The notes beneath the pieces are model-generated. The model did not search any database and was not told where the DNA came from. It was given only the letters and a program-made list of their open reading frames with translations. 64,000 nt of DNA from Streptomyces ferrugineus (GTDB lineage: Bacteria; Actinomycetota; Actinomycetes; Streptomycetales; Streptomycetaceae): assembly GCF_015160855.1 (NCBI RefSeq), contig NZ_CP063373.1, forward strand, positions 2,790,001 through 2,854,000, given 5' to 3'. Within the stretch, counting starts at the first letter, position 1, and each line of letters begins with the position of its first letter. Below, piece after piece: positions 29,644 through 58,510 of the stretch. Position numbers and translations under genes: made by a program.

Positions 29644-29660
29644 GGAACGCTGCGCGATCG

Positions 29661-29706
29661 GCTGCGGGTTGTCCGTGGCTGGTCGCGCAGTTCCCCGCGC
29701 CCCTTA
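29661..29706. repeat. Intergenic terminator repeat, split by the insertion
   Basis: GTGGCTGGTCGCGCAGTTCC followed by CCGCGCCCCTTA repeats the block at 16016-16045. At 16 kb the C-run is followed by its complementary G-run. Here the complementary arm (TAAGGGGCGC) lies 4.4 kb away at 34137-34146, after the inserted DNA. Rejoined, the arms would read GCGCCCCTTAAGGGGCGC, a perfect palindrome. Confidence 0.65.
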
Positions 29707-30722
29707 CTGACTTCAGTTCGTCGGGGTGAATCTTTGCGAAGACCCTGATGGGTGTGGGGGGCGGCTGTATCCGTGTGGTGTGAGACATGCGGATGGGGGC
29801 GGGCTGACCCCTGCGGGACGGTGGTCGTGAGGCTCTGGCTTCCCGCGGCCCGGGGGGATCGCGTGGCCGGCTGTCCCCGCGCGGTCCGGAGAGACTGGCC
29901 GCGTACCTCGATGAGGACGCGGCCGCCCACAACTGGGTGGAGGACCAGGTGTGGACCACATCGAGGGTGGCCACGCCGATCGGCAGGAAGTCCCCTACAG
30001 CGTCTCCGGCGCCACGCGGCTGATGCACCGGCCTTGGCTTCAGCCCGCAGGTCCCTGCACGCAGGTCGCCGAGCGCGACGAGCGGGCCGTGACCTCGTGG
30101 AAGGAGGCGACCTGGACGGAGGTAGAAGGGCGCGGTCGCGCCCTGCGCCCCGGGCGGCCTGCGGGTGCCGCAACCGCTTCGAGGACGAAGCAGGGTTCAC
30201 CCGGAAGCCGCCACCGGGACGAACCCTGCAGCCGGCGAGGGCGCACCCCGGTCGTGACCGTCAGCGGGCGCCGCTCAGGGCGCCTGTCGGCGGCCGGGCT
30301 GATCGCGACACGGCCGCTCGCGCACCCGGCCGTGTCACCGGCTGCGCACCCACCGCCCATGCAGCAGCACACACCGCAGCATGGGCGAGCGGGACTTCAT
30401 CGCGCTCATCGACGGCGCCCACCAGCTCGTCAAGGCACCGATCGTGCTGTTTTGGGACCGTCTGAACACCCACGCCTCCCACGCCATGCGCGAACTGACC
30501 GCCGAGCGGGAGCGGTTGACGGTGTTCCCGCTCCCCGCCTACCCGCCCGGTCTCAACCCGTCGAGCGGAGATGGGCACACGTCAAGCGGAGCCTGGCCAA
30601 CCTCGCCGTGCTCACGCTCGACCGGCTCGAAGCCCTCGCCCGTAACCGGCTCAAGCGCCTTCAGCACCGGCCTGACTCTCAACGGACCCACATCACCTTG
30701 ACGAGCCGAAGCCAACCACGCC
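29707..30722 (+). mobile_element. IS630-family element, left copy, transposase pseudogene
   Basis: Pieces of an IS630 transposase appear in different frames on the plus strand: a helix-turn-helix part with YLDEDAAAHNWVEDQVW and SGATRLMHR, then GERDFIALIDGAHQLVK, VLFWDRLNTHASHAMRE (second catalytic Asp) and VFPLPAYPPGLNP, and in another frame VERRWAHVKRSLANLAV (catalytic Glu). Frameshifts separate them, so no functional enzyme is made. The terminal repeats are 29707-29727 (CTGACTTCAGTTCGTCGGGG...) and 30693-30715 (TCACCTTGACGAGCCGAAGC...), which match at about 17 of 23 positions. Relative to the right copy it lacks 35 bp near 30668 and one C near 29993. Confidence 0.82.
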
Positions 30723-31262
30723 ATGGTCTTGGGCGTCGATGACTTCCTCATGCTCGTCTGTTGCCGGCAGTCCGAGGCCGCCTCCGGCGCGCCCATGGCG
30801 GCGGGCCCCGGCGGCGGTCAGTGGCGTGTACTTCGCGCGGAGAGCCGTAAACCACCGCCGAGTGAAGGCGTTGCAGTCGAGGACAGCCGCAAGATACAGC
30901 CAACCTTCTGCTGTGGCTATATAAGTGATATCGCCGACGAGCTTTTCACCTGGTGCGTCGGCGGTAAAGTTCCGGCCGGCGAAGTCCGGTACCGAACGCG
31001 GCGCACCCTGCGTGAGGTTGAAGCGTCTCGGCTTCGGCTGGCAGGGCTCCAGGCCCAGCTCACGCATGAGGTGGCGGACCAACTCCAGGACCGCGGCAAT
31101 GTCCCAGCGGCGCAACTGGGCGTGAACGCGTCGGTAGCCGTAGGTGCTGTCGGCATGTCACTTCCATCTCCAGTTCACGGTTGCGCCGTTCGAGCTCCTT
31201 GAGGCGCGCCCGCCCCTCAGCGGGATCTGGACTGCTTCTTCACGGAACTCCGGCGAGTACAT
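30723..31262 (-). pseudogene. IS3-family transposase remnant
   Basis: On the minus strand, decayed pieces of an IS3 orfA/orfB pair are visible. They are MYSPEFREEAVQI near 31262, KELERRNRELEMEV near 31200, TYGYRRVHAQLRRWD near 31160-31110 and GEKLVGDITYIATAEGWLYL near 30930, the first catalytic Asp block of the integrase core. The later catalytic Asp and Glu regions are missing, and frames change between pieces. It is dead DNA trapped between the IS630 copies. Bases 31263-31635 (about 370 bp) hold no gene that I can support; they are the old IS3 end plus the leader of the next gene. Confidence 0.7.
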
Positions 31263-31635
31263 GCTCGGTGGCGCCACTTCATCCTCGTTTCCTGTTCAGG
31301 GCAACCCTGTTGGGACCTGTAGCAGACCCTGCTTCTGAACCTGAGGAGCGGAGCTTCCGGCAGCATGCGCCCGCGGACGGTCAGCATCCCGATCTCCACG
31401 CGGCAACAAGCACCCTGCAACGTTGTAGGTGCCCCCACATGGCGAAGGCACCCCAGACTGTGCCGTCGGATGCCGCAAGGCCGGTGCATGGCGAGTTGCA
31501 CAGTCAGCAGCCGGATCCGTGGCGACGAGCGCGTCAGCACAGAACCAAGGCAACGAACTCAACGGGGGGCACCGTGCACATCACCAGGCGAACCTGCCGG
31601 CACGCCCTCCCGGAAGACTCGACCTAAGGAGTGCC

Positions 31636-33081
31636 GTGTTCAGAACGAGAGCAAGACCCCAGACGGACTCCATACCGTCCGCCGGTCCGCACCCACGGAG
31701 CCGGCGGCGGCCGGCCGCCGCGCTGACAGCCTGGATGATGGGGCTCGTCGTCGCCGCGGCGACGATCCTCGTGGCGACGCCCGCGTCGGCCGCGCCGTCC
31801 ACCCCGGACTTCGGGCGGGCCATCGACGCGTATGCCGCCAACGACCCCCAGGACACCTGTGATCCGGCCGTCAAGCCGGGCACTGTGGGTCTCCGGGACC
31901 TGCTCAACGATGCGTACGGCTCTCACACTTCCTACTTCACCCGCGCCTGCGACAGCGGTGGCACGAGTGAGCACAAGGAAGGCCGTGCGCTGGACTACAT
32001 GCTCAACTACTACGACTCCGGTGAGCGCGCCATCGCCGAGGACATCCTCACCTGGCTGCTGAAGACGGACAAGTACGGCAACAAGCACGCCAACGCCCGG
32101 CGGCTCGGGGTCATGTACCTGATCTGGAACGACCGGATCTGGTCGTCGAGCCAAGCCGACGACGGGTGGCGGGAGTACAACGGCGACAATCCGCACAGGG
32201 ACCACATCCACGTCAGTCTCAGCTGGGCTGGTGCCCTCAAGCAGACAAGCTGGTGGACGTGGGAGGAGCCCGGAAGGACCACCCACAGCGTGACGGGTGA
32301 CTCGTTCTCCGACCTGGTGGCGACGAAGTCCGACGGCACGATGTGGCTGTATTCGAACAACTTCCTGCGTGACGACGGTACTCCGTATGGCAGTGCCCGT
32401 CAGATCGGCCAGGGCTGGAACAACTTCAACCGCATCATCGCGGCGGATGCGACCGGGGATGGGTTCACCGACCTGGTGGCGACGAAGTCCGACGGCACGA
32501 TGTGGCTGTATTCCAACAACTTCGTTCGTGACGACGGTACTCCGTATGGCAGTGCCCGTCAGATCGGCCAGGGCTGGAACAACTTCAACCGCATCATCGC
32601 GGCCGATGCGACCGGGGATGGGTTCACCGACCTGGTGGCGACGAAGTCCGACGGCACGATGTGGCTGTATTCCAACAACTTCGTCCGTGACGACGGTACT
32701 CCGTATGGCAGTGCCCGTCAGATCGGCCAGGGCTGGAACAACTTCAACCGCATCATCGCGGCGGACGCGACCGGGGATGGGTTCACCGACCTGGTGGCGA
32801 CGAAGTCCGACGGCACGATGTGGCTGTATTCCAACAACTTTGTTCGTGACGACGGTACTCCGTATGGCAGTGCCCGTCAGATCGGCCAGGGCTGGAACAA
32901 CTTCAACCGCATCATCGCGGCGGACGCGACCGGGGATGGGTTCACCGACCTGGTGGCGACGAAGTCCGACGGCACGATGTGGCTGTATTCCAACAACTTC
33001 GTCCGTGACGACGGTACTCCGTATGGCAGTGCCCGTCAGATCGGCCACGGCTGGAACAACTTCAACCGCATCACCGCCTGA
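31636..33081 (+). CDS. Secreted M15-like zinc hydrolase domain with five FG-GAP/VCBS-type repeats
   Basis: A 481-aa protein starting at GTG 31636, 5 bp after AAGGAG. The signal peptide is long (about 1-53, RSRRRPAAALTAWMMGLVVA, ending ASA). Residues of about 60-210 look like an M15/VanY-type zinc site: H-x6-D in SEHKEGRALDYML and HxH in RDHIHVSLSW. From about residue 224 come five copies of a 53-aa unit (DLVATKSDGTMWLYSNNF ... GWNNFNRIIAADATGDG), probably beta-propeller blades. It may cut or bind cell-wall peptides. It is the only intact gene inside the inserted element, and it ends 4 bp before the right IS630 copy, so its 3' end could have been trimmed. Confidence 0.75.
   Translation: MFRTRARPQTDSIPSAGPHPRSRRRPAAALTAWMMGLVVAAATILVATPASAAPSTPDFGRAIDAYAANDPQDTCDPAVKPGTVGLRDLLNDAYGSHTSYFTRACDSGGTSEHKEGRALDYMLNYYDSGERAIAEDILTWLLKTDKYGNKHANARRLGVMYLIWNDRIWSSSQADDGWREYNGDNPHRDHIHVSLSWAGALKQTSWWTWEEPGRTTHSVTGDSFSDLVATKSDGTMWLYSNNFLRDDGTPYGSARQIGQGWNNFNRIIAADATGDGFTDLVATKSDGTMWLYSNNFVRDDGTPYGSARQIGQGWNNFNRIIAADATGDGFTDLVATKSDGTMWLYSNNFVRDDGTPYGSARQIGQGWNNFNRIIAADATGDGFTDLVATKSDGTMWLYSNNFVRDDGTPYGSARQIGQGWNNFNRIIAADATGDGFTDLVATKSDGTMWLYSNNFVRDDGTPYGSARQIGHGWNNFNRITA
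32305..33081 (+). repeat. Five tandem 159-bp coding repeats
   Basis: Units begin at 32305, 32464, 32623, 32782 and 32941, each exactly 159 bp apart; the last is cut at 141 bp by the stop codon. Differences between copies are only scattered single bases (for example TTCGTTCGT against TTTGTTCGT), including silent positions. Such DNA-level identity points to very recent amplification or ongoing gene conversion. Confidence 0.95.
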
Positions 33082-33084
33082 GTG

Positions 33085-34136
33085 GGCGTGGTTGGCTTCG
33101 GCTCGTCAAGGTGATGTGGGTCCGTTGAGAGTCAGGCCGGTGCCGGCTATGAAGCCGTCGAGGGTGTCGGGCCGGTGCTGAAGGCGCTTGAGCCGGTTAC
33201 GGGCGAGGGCTTCGAGCCGGTCGAGCGTGAGCACGGCGAGGTTGGCCAGGCTCCGCTTGACGTGTGCCCATCTCCGCTCGACGGGTTGAGACCGGGCGGG
33301 TAGGCGGGGAGCGGGAACACCGTCAACCGCTCCCGCTCGGCGGTCAGTTCGCGCATGGCGTGGGAGGCGTGGGTGTTCAGACGGTCCCAAAACAGCACGA
33401 TCGGTGCCTTGACGAGCTGGTGGGCGCCGTCGATGAGCGCGATGAAGTCCCGCTCGCCCATGCTGCGGTGTGTGCTGCTGCATGGGCGGTGGGTGCGCAG
33501 CCGGTGACACGGCCGGGTGCGCGAGCGGCCGTGTCGCGATCAGCCCGGCCGCCGACAGGCGCCCTGAGCGGCGCCCGCTGACGGTCACGACCGGGGTGCG
33601 CCCTCGCCGGCTGCAGGGTTCGTCCCGGTGGCGGCTTCCGGGTGAACCCTGCTTCGTCCTCGAAGCAGTTGCGGCACCCGCAGGCCGCCCGGGGCGCAGG
33701 GCGCGACCGCGCCCTTCTACCTCCGTCCAGGTCGCCTCCTTCCACGAGGTCACGGCCCGCTCGTCGCGCTCGGCGACCTGCGTGCAGGGACCTGCGGGCT
33801 GAAGCCAAGGCCGGTGCATCAGCCGCGTGGCGCCGGAGACGCTGCAGGGGGACTTCCTGCCGATCGGCGTGGCCACCCTCGATGTGGTCCACACCTGGTC
33901 CTCCACCCAGTTGTGGGCGGCCGCGTCCTCATCGAGGTACGCGGCCAGTCTCTCCGGACCGCGCGGGGACAGCCGGCCACGCGATCCCCCCGGGCCGCGG
34001 GAAGCCAGAGCCTCACGACCACCGTCCCGCAGGGGTCAGCCCGCCCCCATCCGCATGTCTCACACCACACGGATACAGCCGCCCCCCACACCCATCAGGG
34101 TCTTCGCAAAGATTCACCCCGACGAACTGAAGTCAG
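33085..34136 (-). mobile_element. IS630-family element, right copy (inverted), transposase pseudogene
   Basis: The reverse complement matches the left copy almost base for base and has the same transposase fragments (FWDRLNTHASHAM; VERRWAHVK in another frame), so both carry the same older frameshifts. It has 35 bp more near 33130-33165, bracketed by the direct repeat GCACCGGCC, and one extra C near 33848. Its inner terminal repeat is 33092-33114 and its outer one 34116-34136. It is inactive. Confidence 0.82.
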
Positions 34137-34145
34137 TAAGGGGCG

Positions 34146-35588
34146 CTACCTGAGCGCCGCTCGCATCATCGCCTTGGCCACCGGTGCCGCCAGCCCGTTG
34201 CCGCTGACCTCCGAACGCGCCGCGTCCGACTGCTCGACGAGCACCGCCACCGCGACCTCCTTGCCGTCGGCCTTGCCGTAGGACGTGAACCAGGCGTACG
34301 GGGTCTTGCTGTTGTTCTCGCCGTGCTGGGCCGTGCCGGTCTTGCCGCCGACCGTCGCGCCGGAGATCTGGGCGTTCGTGCCCGTGCCGTCCGCCACGAC
34401 CGTCCGCATCGCCGACTGGAGCTGCTCGGCCGTGTCGGAGCTGACGATCTCCTCGGTGTCGGCCTGGTCGTCGTAGTTCTCCAGCACATCCCCACCGCTG
34501 TTGGTGATCTGAGACACCATGTGCGGCGAGACCAGCTTGCCGCCGTTGACTATGGCGGCGGACACCATGGCCATCTGCAGCGGGGTCGCGGTGACGTCGA
34601 ACTGGCCGATGCCGGACAGGGCGGTCTGCGCCTTGTCCATGTCGGAGGGGTACACGCTGGTGTACGCCCGCACCGGCACATCCTGCGCGTCGTCGTTGAA
34701 GCCGAACTTCTCGGCCATCTCCCTGACCTTGTCCTGGCCCAGGTCGACGGCCATCTTCCCGAAGACGTTGTTGCACGAGTACTGCAGCGCGACCCGGATC
34801 GAGGCGTTCTCGCAGGGGGCGGACGGGTTCTCGTTGCCCAGGGTGTCGCTCGACTGCGGCAGCGGATACGGGTCCGGGCTCTCGGTGCGCTCGTCCACCG
34901 ACGAGTACAGCCCGTCCTCCAGCGCGGCCGCCGCCACGACCAGCTTGAACGTCGAACCCGGCGGCAGCGGCTGGCGCAGCGCACGGTTCGTCATCGGCTT
35001 GTCGGCGTCCTTGGTCAGCTCCTCCCAGGCCGCCGAGTCACCCGTGGTGATCCGCGACGGGTCGTACGACGGAGTGGAGACCACCGCCAGGATCCTCCCG
35101 GTCGTGGGGTCGATCGCGACGGCGGCGCCCTTCTTCTCGCCGAGCGCGTCGTACGCCGCCTTCTGCACATCCGGGTCGATCGTCGTGATCACATTGCCCG
35201 GATCGGCCCGCTTGTTGGTGACCGTGTCCAGCACGCTCTTCAGGCGGTTGTCGGTCCCGTCGAGCAGGTCCCGGTAGACGCCCTCCAGCTGAGTGGCCCC
35301 GAACGCCTGTGAGCTGTAGCCGGTCACGGCCGCGTACAGCGAGCCGTCCGTGTACGTCCGCTTGTACGCGAGATCGCCGCTCTCGGTGCGCGCGGAGCCG
35401 GTGACCGACCTGCCGCCCACGACGATGTTGCCGAGCGGCTCGCTGTACAGCGCGATCGTGTTCCGCCGGTTGTCCTTGTCGTCCGCGAGCGCCCGGCCAT
35501 CGTAGAACTGCACCCAGGTCGCCCTGATCAACAGAGCGAACACCAGTAGCAGCGTGAAGACGGACGCCCGCCTGATCGTCTTGTTCAT
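34146..35588 (-). CDS. Penicillin-binding protein (PbpA/FtsI-type transpeptidase)
   Basis: A 480-aa protein with an N-terminal signal anchor (VFTLLLVFALLIRATWV), an N-terminal dimerisation part, and a C-terminal transpeptidase domain. The catalytic motifs are all present: SxxK in PGSTFKLVV, SxN in QYSCNNVFG, and KTG in VGGKTGTAQHG. It cross-links peptidoglycan outside the membrane. The stop codon directly abuts the terminator arm next to the inserted element (34137-34146), so the gene is intact. It is transcribed away from the RR gene, with 55 bp between them. Confidence 0.92.
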   Translation of the reverse strand: MNKTIRRASVFTLLLVFALLIRATWVQFYDGRALADDKDNRRNTIALYSEPLGNIVVGGRSVTGSARTESGDLAYKRTYTDGSLYAAVTGYSSQAFGATQLEGVYRDLLDGTDNRLKSVLDTVTNKRADPGNVITTIDPDVQKAAYDALGEKKGAAVAIDPTTGRILAVVSTPSYDPSRITTGDSAAWEELTKDADKPMTNRALRQPLPPGSTFKLVVAAAALEDGLYSSVDERTESPDPYPLPQSSDTLGNENPSAPCENASIRVALQYSCNNVFGKMAVDLGQDKVREMAEKFGFNDDAQDVPVRAYTSVYPSDMDKAQTALSGIGQFDVTATPLQMAMVSAAIVNGGKLVSPHMVSQITNSGGDVLENYDDQADTEEIVSSDTAEQLQSAMRTVVADGTGTNAQISGATVGGKTGTAQHGENNSKTPYAWFTSYGKADGKEVAVAVLVEQSDAARSEVSGNGLAAPVAKAMMRAALR

Positions 35589-57259: not shown

Positions 57260-58108
57260 GTGGTGGACGGCGAGGACGCGGGAGTCGGAGGCGGGGGCAG
57301 TGAACCAGAAGTGTCGGACAGCCTCAAGACGTTCGGCGCGGTGCACAAGGCGCTGCGGGAGACGGCGGGGCTCACGCAGGAGGAGTACGCCGAGGTCGTC
57401 GGCTACTCGGTGCATGCCGTGGCCAAGCTGGAGCAGGGCAGGCGCTTCCCGCAGCCGAAGTACATCCAGCGGGCGGGTGAGGTGCTGGAGGCACCCAGGG
57501 TGCTGCGGGCGGCGGCACGGAATCTGACGCGGAAGCAGGGGCTGGCGTCGTGGTTCCAGCAGTGGGCGGGGATCGAGGAGGAGGCGATCTCGCTCTACGC
57601 GTACGAGTGCCGGGCGATTCCGGGGTTGTTGCAGCCGGAGCCGTATGTGCGGGCGGTATTCCGCAGCAGCCTGCCGCCGCTGACCGACGACCAGTTGGAG
57701 CGACAGGTAGAGGCGCGGCTGGAGCGACAGCGGCTGCTGACGGGAAAGCAGAACGTGGCGTTCAGTTTCATCATTGAGCAGGCCGTTGTCGAGCGGCGAA
57801 CGGGCGGAGACGACGTCACGCGCGTCTTGATCGACCACCTGCTTCAGTGCGGCGAGCTTCGCAACATTCAGCTCCAGATCATGCCTTTGCGGCAGCCGGA
57901 TCATGCGGGTCTCGACGGCTCCATGTACCTCGCTGAGACTCCGGACCACCAGTGGTTCGGCTACTTCGAGGGTCAGCAGGGAAGCGCCCTGATCAGCGAC
58001 CCAAAAGACACCAGCGCCCTGCTTCAGCGCTATGGCAAGATGCGCTCGCAGGCTCTCAGCCACGAGGCAACCGTGAGCCTGCTGAAGCAGATGCGAGGAG
58101 CGCTATGA
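57260..58108 (+). CDS. XRE-type regulator with DUF5753 domain
   Basis: A 282-aa protein. The helix-turn-helix (about 18-75) reads LKTFGAVHKALRETAGLTQE and VVGYSVHAVAKLEQGRRFPQ. The DUF5753 ligand-like domain (about 105-275) has LYAYECRAIPGLLQPEPYV, VAFSFIIEQAVV and DGSMYLAETPDHQWFGYFEG. Start chosen at GTG 57260 because GGGAGG precedes it. It overlaps the first DUF397 gene by ATGA; such pairs act as linked regulator/antagonist modules in Streptomyces development and antibiotic control. Confidence 0.9.
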   Translation: MVDGEDAGVGGGGSEPEVSDSLKTFGAVHKALRETAGLTQEEYAEVVGYSVHAVAKLEQGRRFPQPKYIQRAGEVLEAPRVLRAAARNLTRKQGLASWFQQWAGIEEEAISLYAYECRAIPGLLQPEPYVRAVFRSSLPPLTDDQLERQVEARLERQRLLTGKQNVAFSFIIEQAVVERRTGGDDVTRVLIDHLLQCGELRNIQLQIMPLRQPDHAGLDGSMYLAETPDHQWFGYFEGQQGSALISDPKDTSALLQRYGKMRSQALSHEATVSLLKQMRGAL

Positions 58109-58284
58109 GCACCACCGAGTTGGCGTGGTTCAAAAGCAGCTACAGCGGCACACAGGGAGACAACTGCGTCGAAGTCGCGATGGCCGGCTCCGTCCACGTG
58201 CGTGACTCGAAGCAGCAGGAAGGCGGACAGATCGCCCTCTCTCCCACCGCTTGGGCAGCCTTCATCGACTACGCGGCGGCCTGA
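58105..58284 (+). CDS. DUF397 small protein (first copy)
   Basis: A 59-aa protein with the full DUF397 pattern: AWFKSSYSG, GDNCVEVA, HVRDSKQQEGG and LSPTAWAAFIDY. DUF397 proteins commonly bind or modulate the XRE regulator encoded just upstream, which overlaps this gene by ATGA. Cytoplasmic. Confidence 0.93.
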   Translation: MSTTELAWFKSSYSGTQGDNCVEVAMAGSVHVRDSKQQEGGQIALSPTAWAAFIDYAAA

Positions 58285-58303
58285 AACAGAGCCGAGGAGC
58301 GCC

Positions 58304-58510
58304 ATGAGTACTACCGAACTGGACTGGTTCAAGAGCAGCTACAGCGGCAGTGAGGGCGACAACTGCATCGAAGTCGCCGTGGACCAAGCCATCCACGTGC
58401 GCGACTCGAAGCAGCCGGCAGGGGGACAGCTCGCCCTGTCCCCCACCACCTGGTCGGCGTTCGTCGCCTACGCGGCCGACGCCCGCGCCATCGCCCGGTC
58501 CAGCGCCTGA
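58304..58510 (+). CDS. DUF397 small protein (second copy)
   Basis: A 68-aa paralogue of the previous protein, starting 19 bp after its stop with GAGGAG upstream: LDWFKSSYSG, GDNCIEVA, HVRDSKQPAGG, LSPTTWSAFVAY. The two copies are about 70 percent alike, a tandem duplication. Its last 43 bp overlap the 3' end of the convergent cobC gene. Confidence 0.9.
   Translation: MSTTELDWFKSSYSGSEGDNCIEVAVDQAIHVRDSKQPAGGQLALSPTTWSAFVAYAADARAIARSSA

Follow-up and report, generated by a model that had tools for sequence, protein, structure and literature searches.

A decayed IS630-type composite element in the tip of an ancestral hairpin of Streptomyces ferrugineus and the TTAA preference of its relatives

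In Streptomyces ferrugineus, a mobile element splits the palindrome GCGCCCCT-TA-AGGGGCGC exactly at its centre. This raises the question of whether its insertion sequence (IS) recognizes hairpin tips of an abundant terminator repeat as safe landing sites, as proposed in a preliminary description of the locus, or whether a simpler rule of target choice suffices. The locus was analyzed within a window of 64,000 nucleotides, by which we mean the whole stretch of DNA studied. The element measures 4,434 bp with one TA copy per end, and its coordinates, 29705-34138, are exact and include both TA copies (Table 1). The junctions, read directly, are ...GCAGTTCCCCGCGCCCCT/TA/CTGACTTCAGTTCGTC...GACGAACTGAAGTCAG/TA/AGGGGCGCTACC..., and rejoining the flanks on a single TA gives an 18-bp perfect palindrome, GCGCCCCTTAAGGGGCGC. 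Direct reading thus bore out the description of an insertion exactly at the palindrome centre.

Table 1. Features of the insertion locus in window coordinates
Feature	Position	Strand	Remarks
Left part of ancestral repeat, terminating in GCGCCCCT (half of tip hairpin)	29648..29704	+	Left limit approximate; same sequence in orthologous gap of L160, L074 and others
TA target duplication, left copy	29705..29706	.	Read directly
Left IS630-like copy, decayed	29705..30722	+	~130 internal bp of full-length IS missing, further 35 bp missing, frames broken, inner end altered
IS3-family transposase gene remnant, rve core cut short	30723..31300	-	Limits approximate
Passenger gene: secreted FG-GAP/tachylectin-like protein	31636..33081	+	Likely start GTG 31636 after AAGGAG
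Right IS630-like copy, inverted, decayed likewise	33085..34138	-	
TA target duplication, right copy	34137..34138	.	Read directly
AGGGGCGC, other half of tip hairpin	34139..34146	+	Touches TAG stop of PBP gene (34146-35588, minus strand)

The element is an IS630/Tc1-type composite of two inverted, decayed IS copies. DDE_3 passes the Pfam cut-off of 28.6 narrowly in both arms (28.9 bits) and TA is present at both outer ends, in agreement with the family and the TA duplication given in the preliminary description; HTH_33 in the left arm is below the cut-off. The ends had also been described as inverted repeats, and they are so as the outer ends of two inverted arms of ~1 kb, reaching beyond 10-bp repeats: of the 1062 aligned columns, which include flank, 1024 are identical, 36 are gaps, and 2 are substitutions. 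The decamer CTGACTTCAG is found twice in the window, without mismatch each time, whereas chance alone would give 2.4 matches when one mismatch is allowed; it is therefore the long arms, rather than the decamer, that provide the evidence for the ends. Alignment to the nearest relative breaks near query 109-116, where ~130 bp are absent inside both copies, and the left copy has lost 35 bp on top of this gap. The terminal inverted repeats of a single IS are clear in full-length relatives; the window copies have altered inner ends (GAAGCCAACC versus GAAGTCAGTA), and TA stands on both outer sides of the arms and on neither inner side. Past the IS end, the two inner ends have a further 8 bp in common (ACCACGCC), which shows that both arms derive from one copy. 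The stretch GAAGCCAACCACGCC, common to both arms (30708-30722 and 33085-33099), runs 8 bp past the expected IS end without a TA, presumably a trace of the origin of the second arm.

Two related IS copies flanking a passenger, with a target duplication around the whole, make this a composite transposon. Neither copy is functional at present, both having broken frames and being ~130 bp short, and their earlier state may have differed. The two arms are the sole DNA matches to this IS in the genome, which contains two further DDE_3 loci. Given its broken transposase frames, its altered inner ends, and the lack of other DNA matches to the IS in the genome, the element is probably stuck now.

Between the arms lie an IS3 remnant, scoring below cut-off with both rve (20.6 bits, cut-off 32.6) and NCBIfam transpos_IS3 (57.8 bits, cut-off 160), and a passenger gene whose product contains 4.9 tandem 159-bp repeats and matches Tachylectin (61.3 bits) and FG-GAP_3 (55.6 bits). 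The start site and the signal peptide of the passenger were read by eye, and the longest frame starts at 31429. The GC content is 64.0% in the passenger gene and 64.7% in the IS3-remnant stretch, compared with 70.7% in the window. No close copy of the passenger was found among 40 relatives; relatives of its protein occur in 19 of these 40 genomes, with 27-42% identity over parts. We suggest that the passenger gene was probably acquired from outside. Elsewhere in the window, a 199-bp tandem duplication at 58082-58476 (two copies, 80% matches) seems to take in the start of a small gene.

The rejoined stretch folds at −37.4 kcal/mol (z −4.5) into a stable hairpin, which sits between the convergent permease and PBP genes without a U-run. 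It is a putative terminator at most. On the PBP strand, the hairpin begins at the TAG stop and runs on into the repeat ...GGGGAACTGCGCGACCAGCC...; the sequence at the PBP stop of L160 and L074 is TAG-CGCCCCTTCAGGGGCGC. The repeat is abundant in that the genome has 32 copies of the strict core CGCGCCCC-N0-10-GGGGCGC (43 strand hits merged by hand), but CCCCTTAAGGGG, the version split by the element, is found nowhere else in it. Perfect palindromes that have arms of 8 bp and a TA at the centre are rare in themselves: 1.04 Mb of DNA from relatives contains one for 10,775 TAs, and the window, once the element is taken out, contains none for 631. A scan of the window against Rfam stayed empty at the gathering threshold, and ARAGORN found no tRNA.

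The preliminary description had proposed to look for the uninterrupted palindrome in relatives. From 109 loci of relatives, 19 had no match on both flanks of the permease/PBP gap, and the remaining 90 represent 79 distinct gap sequences. The hairpin GCGCCCC-loop-GGGGCGC is present in 16 of the 79 and absent in its strict form from 63. The first ten relatives included no empty site with the palindrome, although one (L038) has a related repeat; the wider set did reveal the hairpin. The gap of L160 (Streptomyces sp. GESEQ-35) reads TAG-CGCCCCTTCAGGGGCGCGGGGAACTGCGCGACCAGCCACGACGAACCCGCAGCCGATCGCGCAGCG and agrees with the joined site of the window at 65 of 69 positions, its tip being TTCA where the joined site has TTAA. 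None of the 16 hairpin gaps has a TTAA tip; TTCA is found in three, and GTCA, GAA, and others in the rest. Of the relatives found, the nearest by PBP gene is L093 (Streptomyces lanatus), whose gap is 4 nt long and lacks a hairpin, and for these two reasons the immediate pre-insertion site is not seen. Because the same hairpin is present in the gaps of relatives, it predates the element, and the palindrome around the element did not arise from the symmetry of the element itself.

The target choice of this IS was approached through its relatives, most of which are ~1,168 bp in full length with the same inverted ends. The end pattern, with at most one mismatch, has matches in 55 of 392 genomes, giving 121 ends, including the two of this element. 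A two-ended set of 30 rows was reduced to 25 by dropping L007, L012, L026, and L187, where TA is missing on one or both sides, and L011, which is the same insertion as L173; L004, L019, and L173 were scored by their outermost ends. TA is duplicated at these 25 sites, and the targets are TTAA (10), TTAG (6), TTAT (2), and others (7). TTAA makes up 8 of 761 background TAs in the same flanks, as against 10 of the 25 insertion sites (binomial 5e-14). Half-sites T/A are seen in 32 of 50 cases versus 9%, and a T precedes the TA at 55 of 90 ends (again including the two of this element) versus 2.8% of background. These relatives are ~69-89% identical to the IS of the window, and a preference of the latter for TTAA is thus inferred from theirs. 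TTAA itself is rare in GC-rich DNA, with 25 occurrences among the 10,775 TAs of the 1.04 Mb, which come from 80 loci of relatives; one of these 25 background sites, in L098, forms the tip of a hairpin related to this one (stem 7).

Composites built by related IS bear on how the element arrived. In L173 (916-4977), a full IS is followed by a cargo gene and then by a left end of 374 bp in inverted orientation, 99% identical to the first, with TA duplicates at the outer ends. L004 (1261-3770) and L019 (1260-3429), from two genomes of the same genus, share a region of IS plus cargo at different sites, each with an extra inverted end of ~25 bp and outer TA duplicates; the L019 cargo resembles the aminoglycoside nucleotidyltransferase ANT(9)/AadA (NCBIfam PRK13746.1, above cut-off). 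The cargo gene of L173 encodes 662 aa with a Walker-A-like motif, read by eye. Two overlapping frames (993-1826 and 1438-2070) together encode the L173 transposase at 993-2070, possibly by frameshifting. Inverted pairs of IS ends 2.6-5.2 kb apart in G032:C6, G068:C1, G089:C1, and G291:C16 suggest further composites.

Considering these data, we suggest, with a probability of roughly 0.85, that the composite inserted as a unit at the TA in the tip of a pre-existing hairpin, and that a TTAA preference suffices to account for the site. The two inverted IS630-family copies and their cargo would have moved together via the two outer ends, as is indicated by the presence of TA at the outer ends and at neither inner end, and would have entered the tip between the convergent permease and PBP genes with duplication of TA and without disrupting a gene. 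The tip would have become TTAA beforehand, a rare site in the GC-rich genome and apparently of the kind that the relatives of the IS prefer. Since TTAA is so rare in GC-rich DNA, a hairpin tip reading TTAA would simply be a good site, and the IS would not need to recognize either the repeat or the shape of the hairpin. The alternative that the IS recognizes a safe target in repeats of this family, or in hairpin tips of any kind, is improbable. It could explain an insertion exactly on the symmetry axis, a TA stands in the loop of 10 of the 32 repeat copies of the genome (counted by hand from the matches), and there is precedent in other IS families, as described in parts of PMC1525189 and PMC5678879. 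However, a comparison of 98 distinct outer flanks with up to 3 mismatches revealed the repeat within 20 nt of the two ends in the window alone and of none of the 96 other distinct IS ends. The pattern GCGCCCC-N0-4-TACTGAYNTC, which may miss ends with an altered first decamer, matched in the 392 genomes this element and 8 other sequences, all 8 from the 391 other genomes and with 9-15 mismatches in 25 nt to the IS end, so that they are no IS ends. Recurrent insertion into hairpins was likewise not seen: perfect tip stems are 1-5 bp at the 25 other two-ended sites, compared with 8 bp here, and none of the 25 lies in a tip with a stem above 5. The set used for stem length at first differed slightly (with L011, without L019, and with the inner end of L004), and a repeat on the 25 sites of the target count gave the same maximum of 5. 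A rough sum from small counts places ~1.8% of insertions in a tip with a stem of at least 7, with a chance of ~0.37 of at least one such case in 26; perfect centring with 8 bp, as here, is less frequent still (1 of 10,775 TAs), and a structural preference thus keeps some plausibility. The preliminary description had set copies at random TA sites against its proposal, and the copies do lie outside the repeat and the tips, yet they favor TTAA and are not random. The idea of hairpin tips as preferred safe landing sites is not supported for this IS.

It is also conceivable, though unlikely, that a lone IS landed in the tip and that the composite was built in place later by further insertions and an inverted duplication. 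The internal deletion and the altered inner end shared by the arms point to an origin from one copy, as this history would predict. It requires, however, loss of the original right end and the appearance in its stead of an inverted left end precisely at the other TA. The outer TA duplicates around the cargo elements L173 and L004/L019, the latter two with a common cargo at different sites, would instead favor insertion as a unit, although the build of these elements is partly different. Least probable is that the palindromic flank is an artefact, arising when an inverted duplication of one IS copy carried along 8-10 bp of flank and so gave the mirror image GCGCCCCTTA. The 8 bp shared past the IS end at the inner ends are what a ragged inverted duplication would give, and they may still stem from such an event. 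For the outer flank, this origin of the palindrome was rejected on the basis of the gaps in relatives, in which both hairpin halves, including the half touching the PBP stop, are adjacent at the orthologous place.

The element is a decayed IS630 composite of an ordinary kind that sits in an ancestral hairpin tip, and the one useful new fact, worth recording, is the TTAA preference of its IS relatives. The attractive idea of hairpin or terminator tips as safe harbors for transposons tested negative for this IS, and a preference for TTAA in a genome poor in TTAA offers a simpler rule. The results also point to several Streptomyces IS630 composites with different cargo genes. We raise, as a doubtful speculation, that the TTAA preference of this actinomycete IS630 branch amounts to built-in gene sparing in GC-rich chromosomes, with AT-rich hairpin tips as one class of safe site.

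As judged from titles and the beginnings of abstracts, a literature search revealed no TTAA-preferring Streptomyces IS, and among the papers listed on IS in terminators or stem-loops none dealt with an element of the IS630 type in terminators of Streptomyces. An IS630-associated composite transposon with the palindromic target CTAG was reportedly described by Tenzen and Ohtsubo in 1991. The element resembles IS630/Tc1-mariner members such as IS630 and ISY100 in its DDE_3 transposase, its TA target duplication, and the short inverted ends that are clear in its full-length relatives; it differs in the TTAA preference of its IS relatives and in the broken frames of the window copies. For ISY100 in vitro, 34 of 39 products were at TA with normal TA duplication, according to passages of PMC2170065. 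ISPsy8 and other REP-targeting IS are described, in sections of PMC1525189, as inserting at the symmetry axis of an extragenic-repeat hairpin, with several REPs broken, and an element in REP repeats, ISPpu9, is also in print (PMC8450116). The likeness is the insertion on the symmetry axis of a hairpin; the difference is that a single event is seen here and the IS relatives go elsewhere. IS1272, as far as the excerpted text of PMC5678879 describes it, replaces a stem-loop and leaves no duplication. Both IS1272 and this element have an inverted-repeat target, but here both stem halves are kept and the TA is duplicated.
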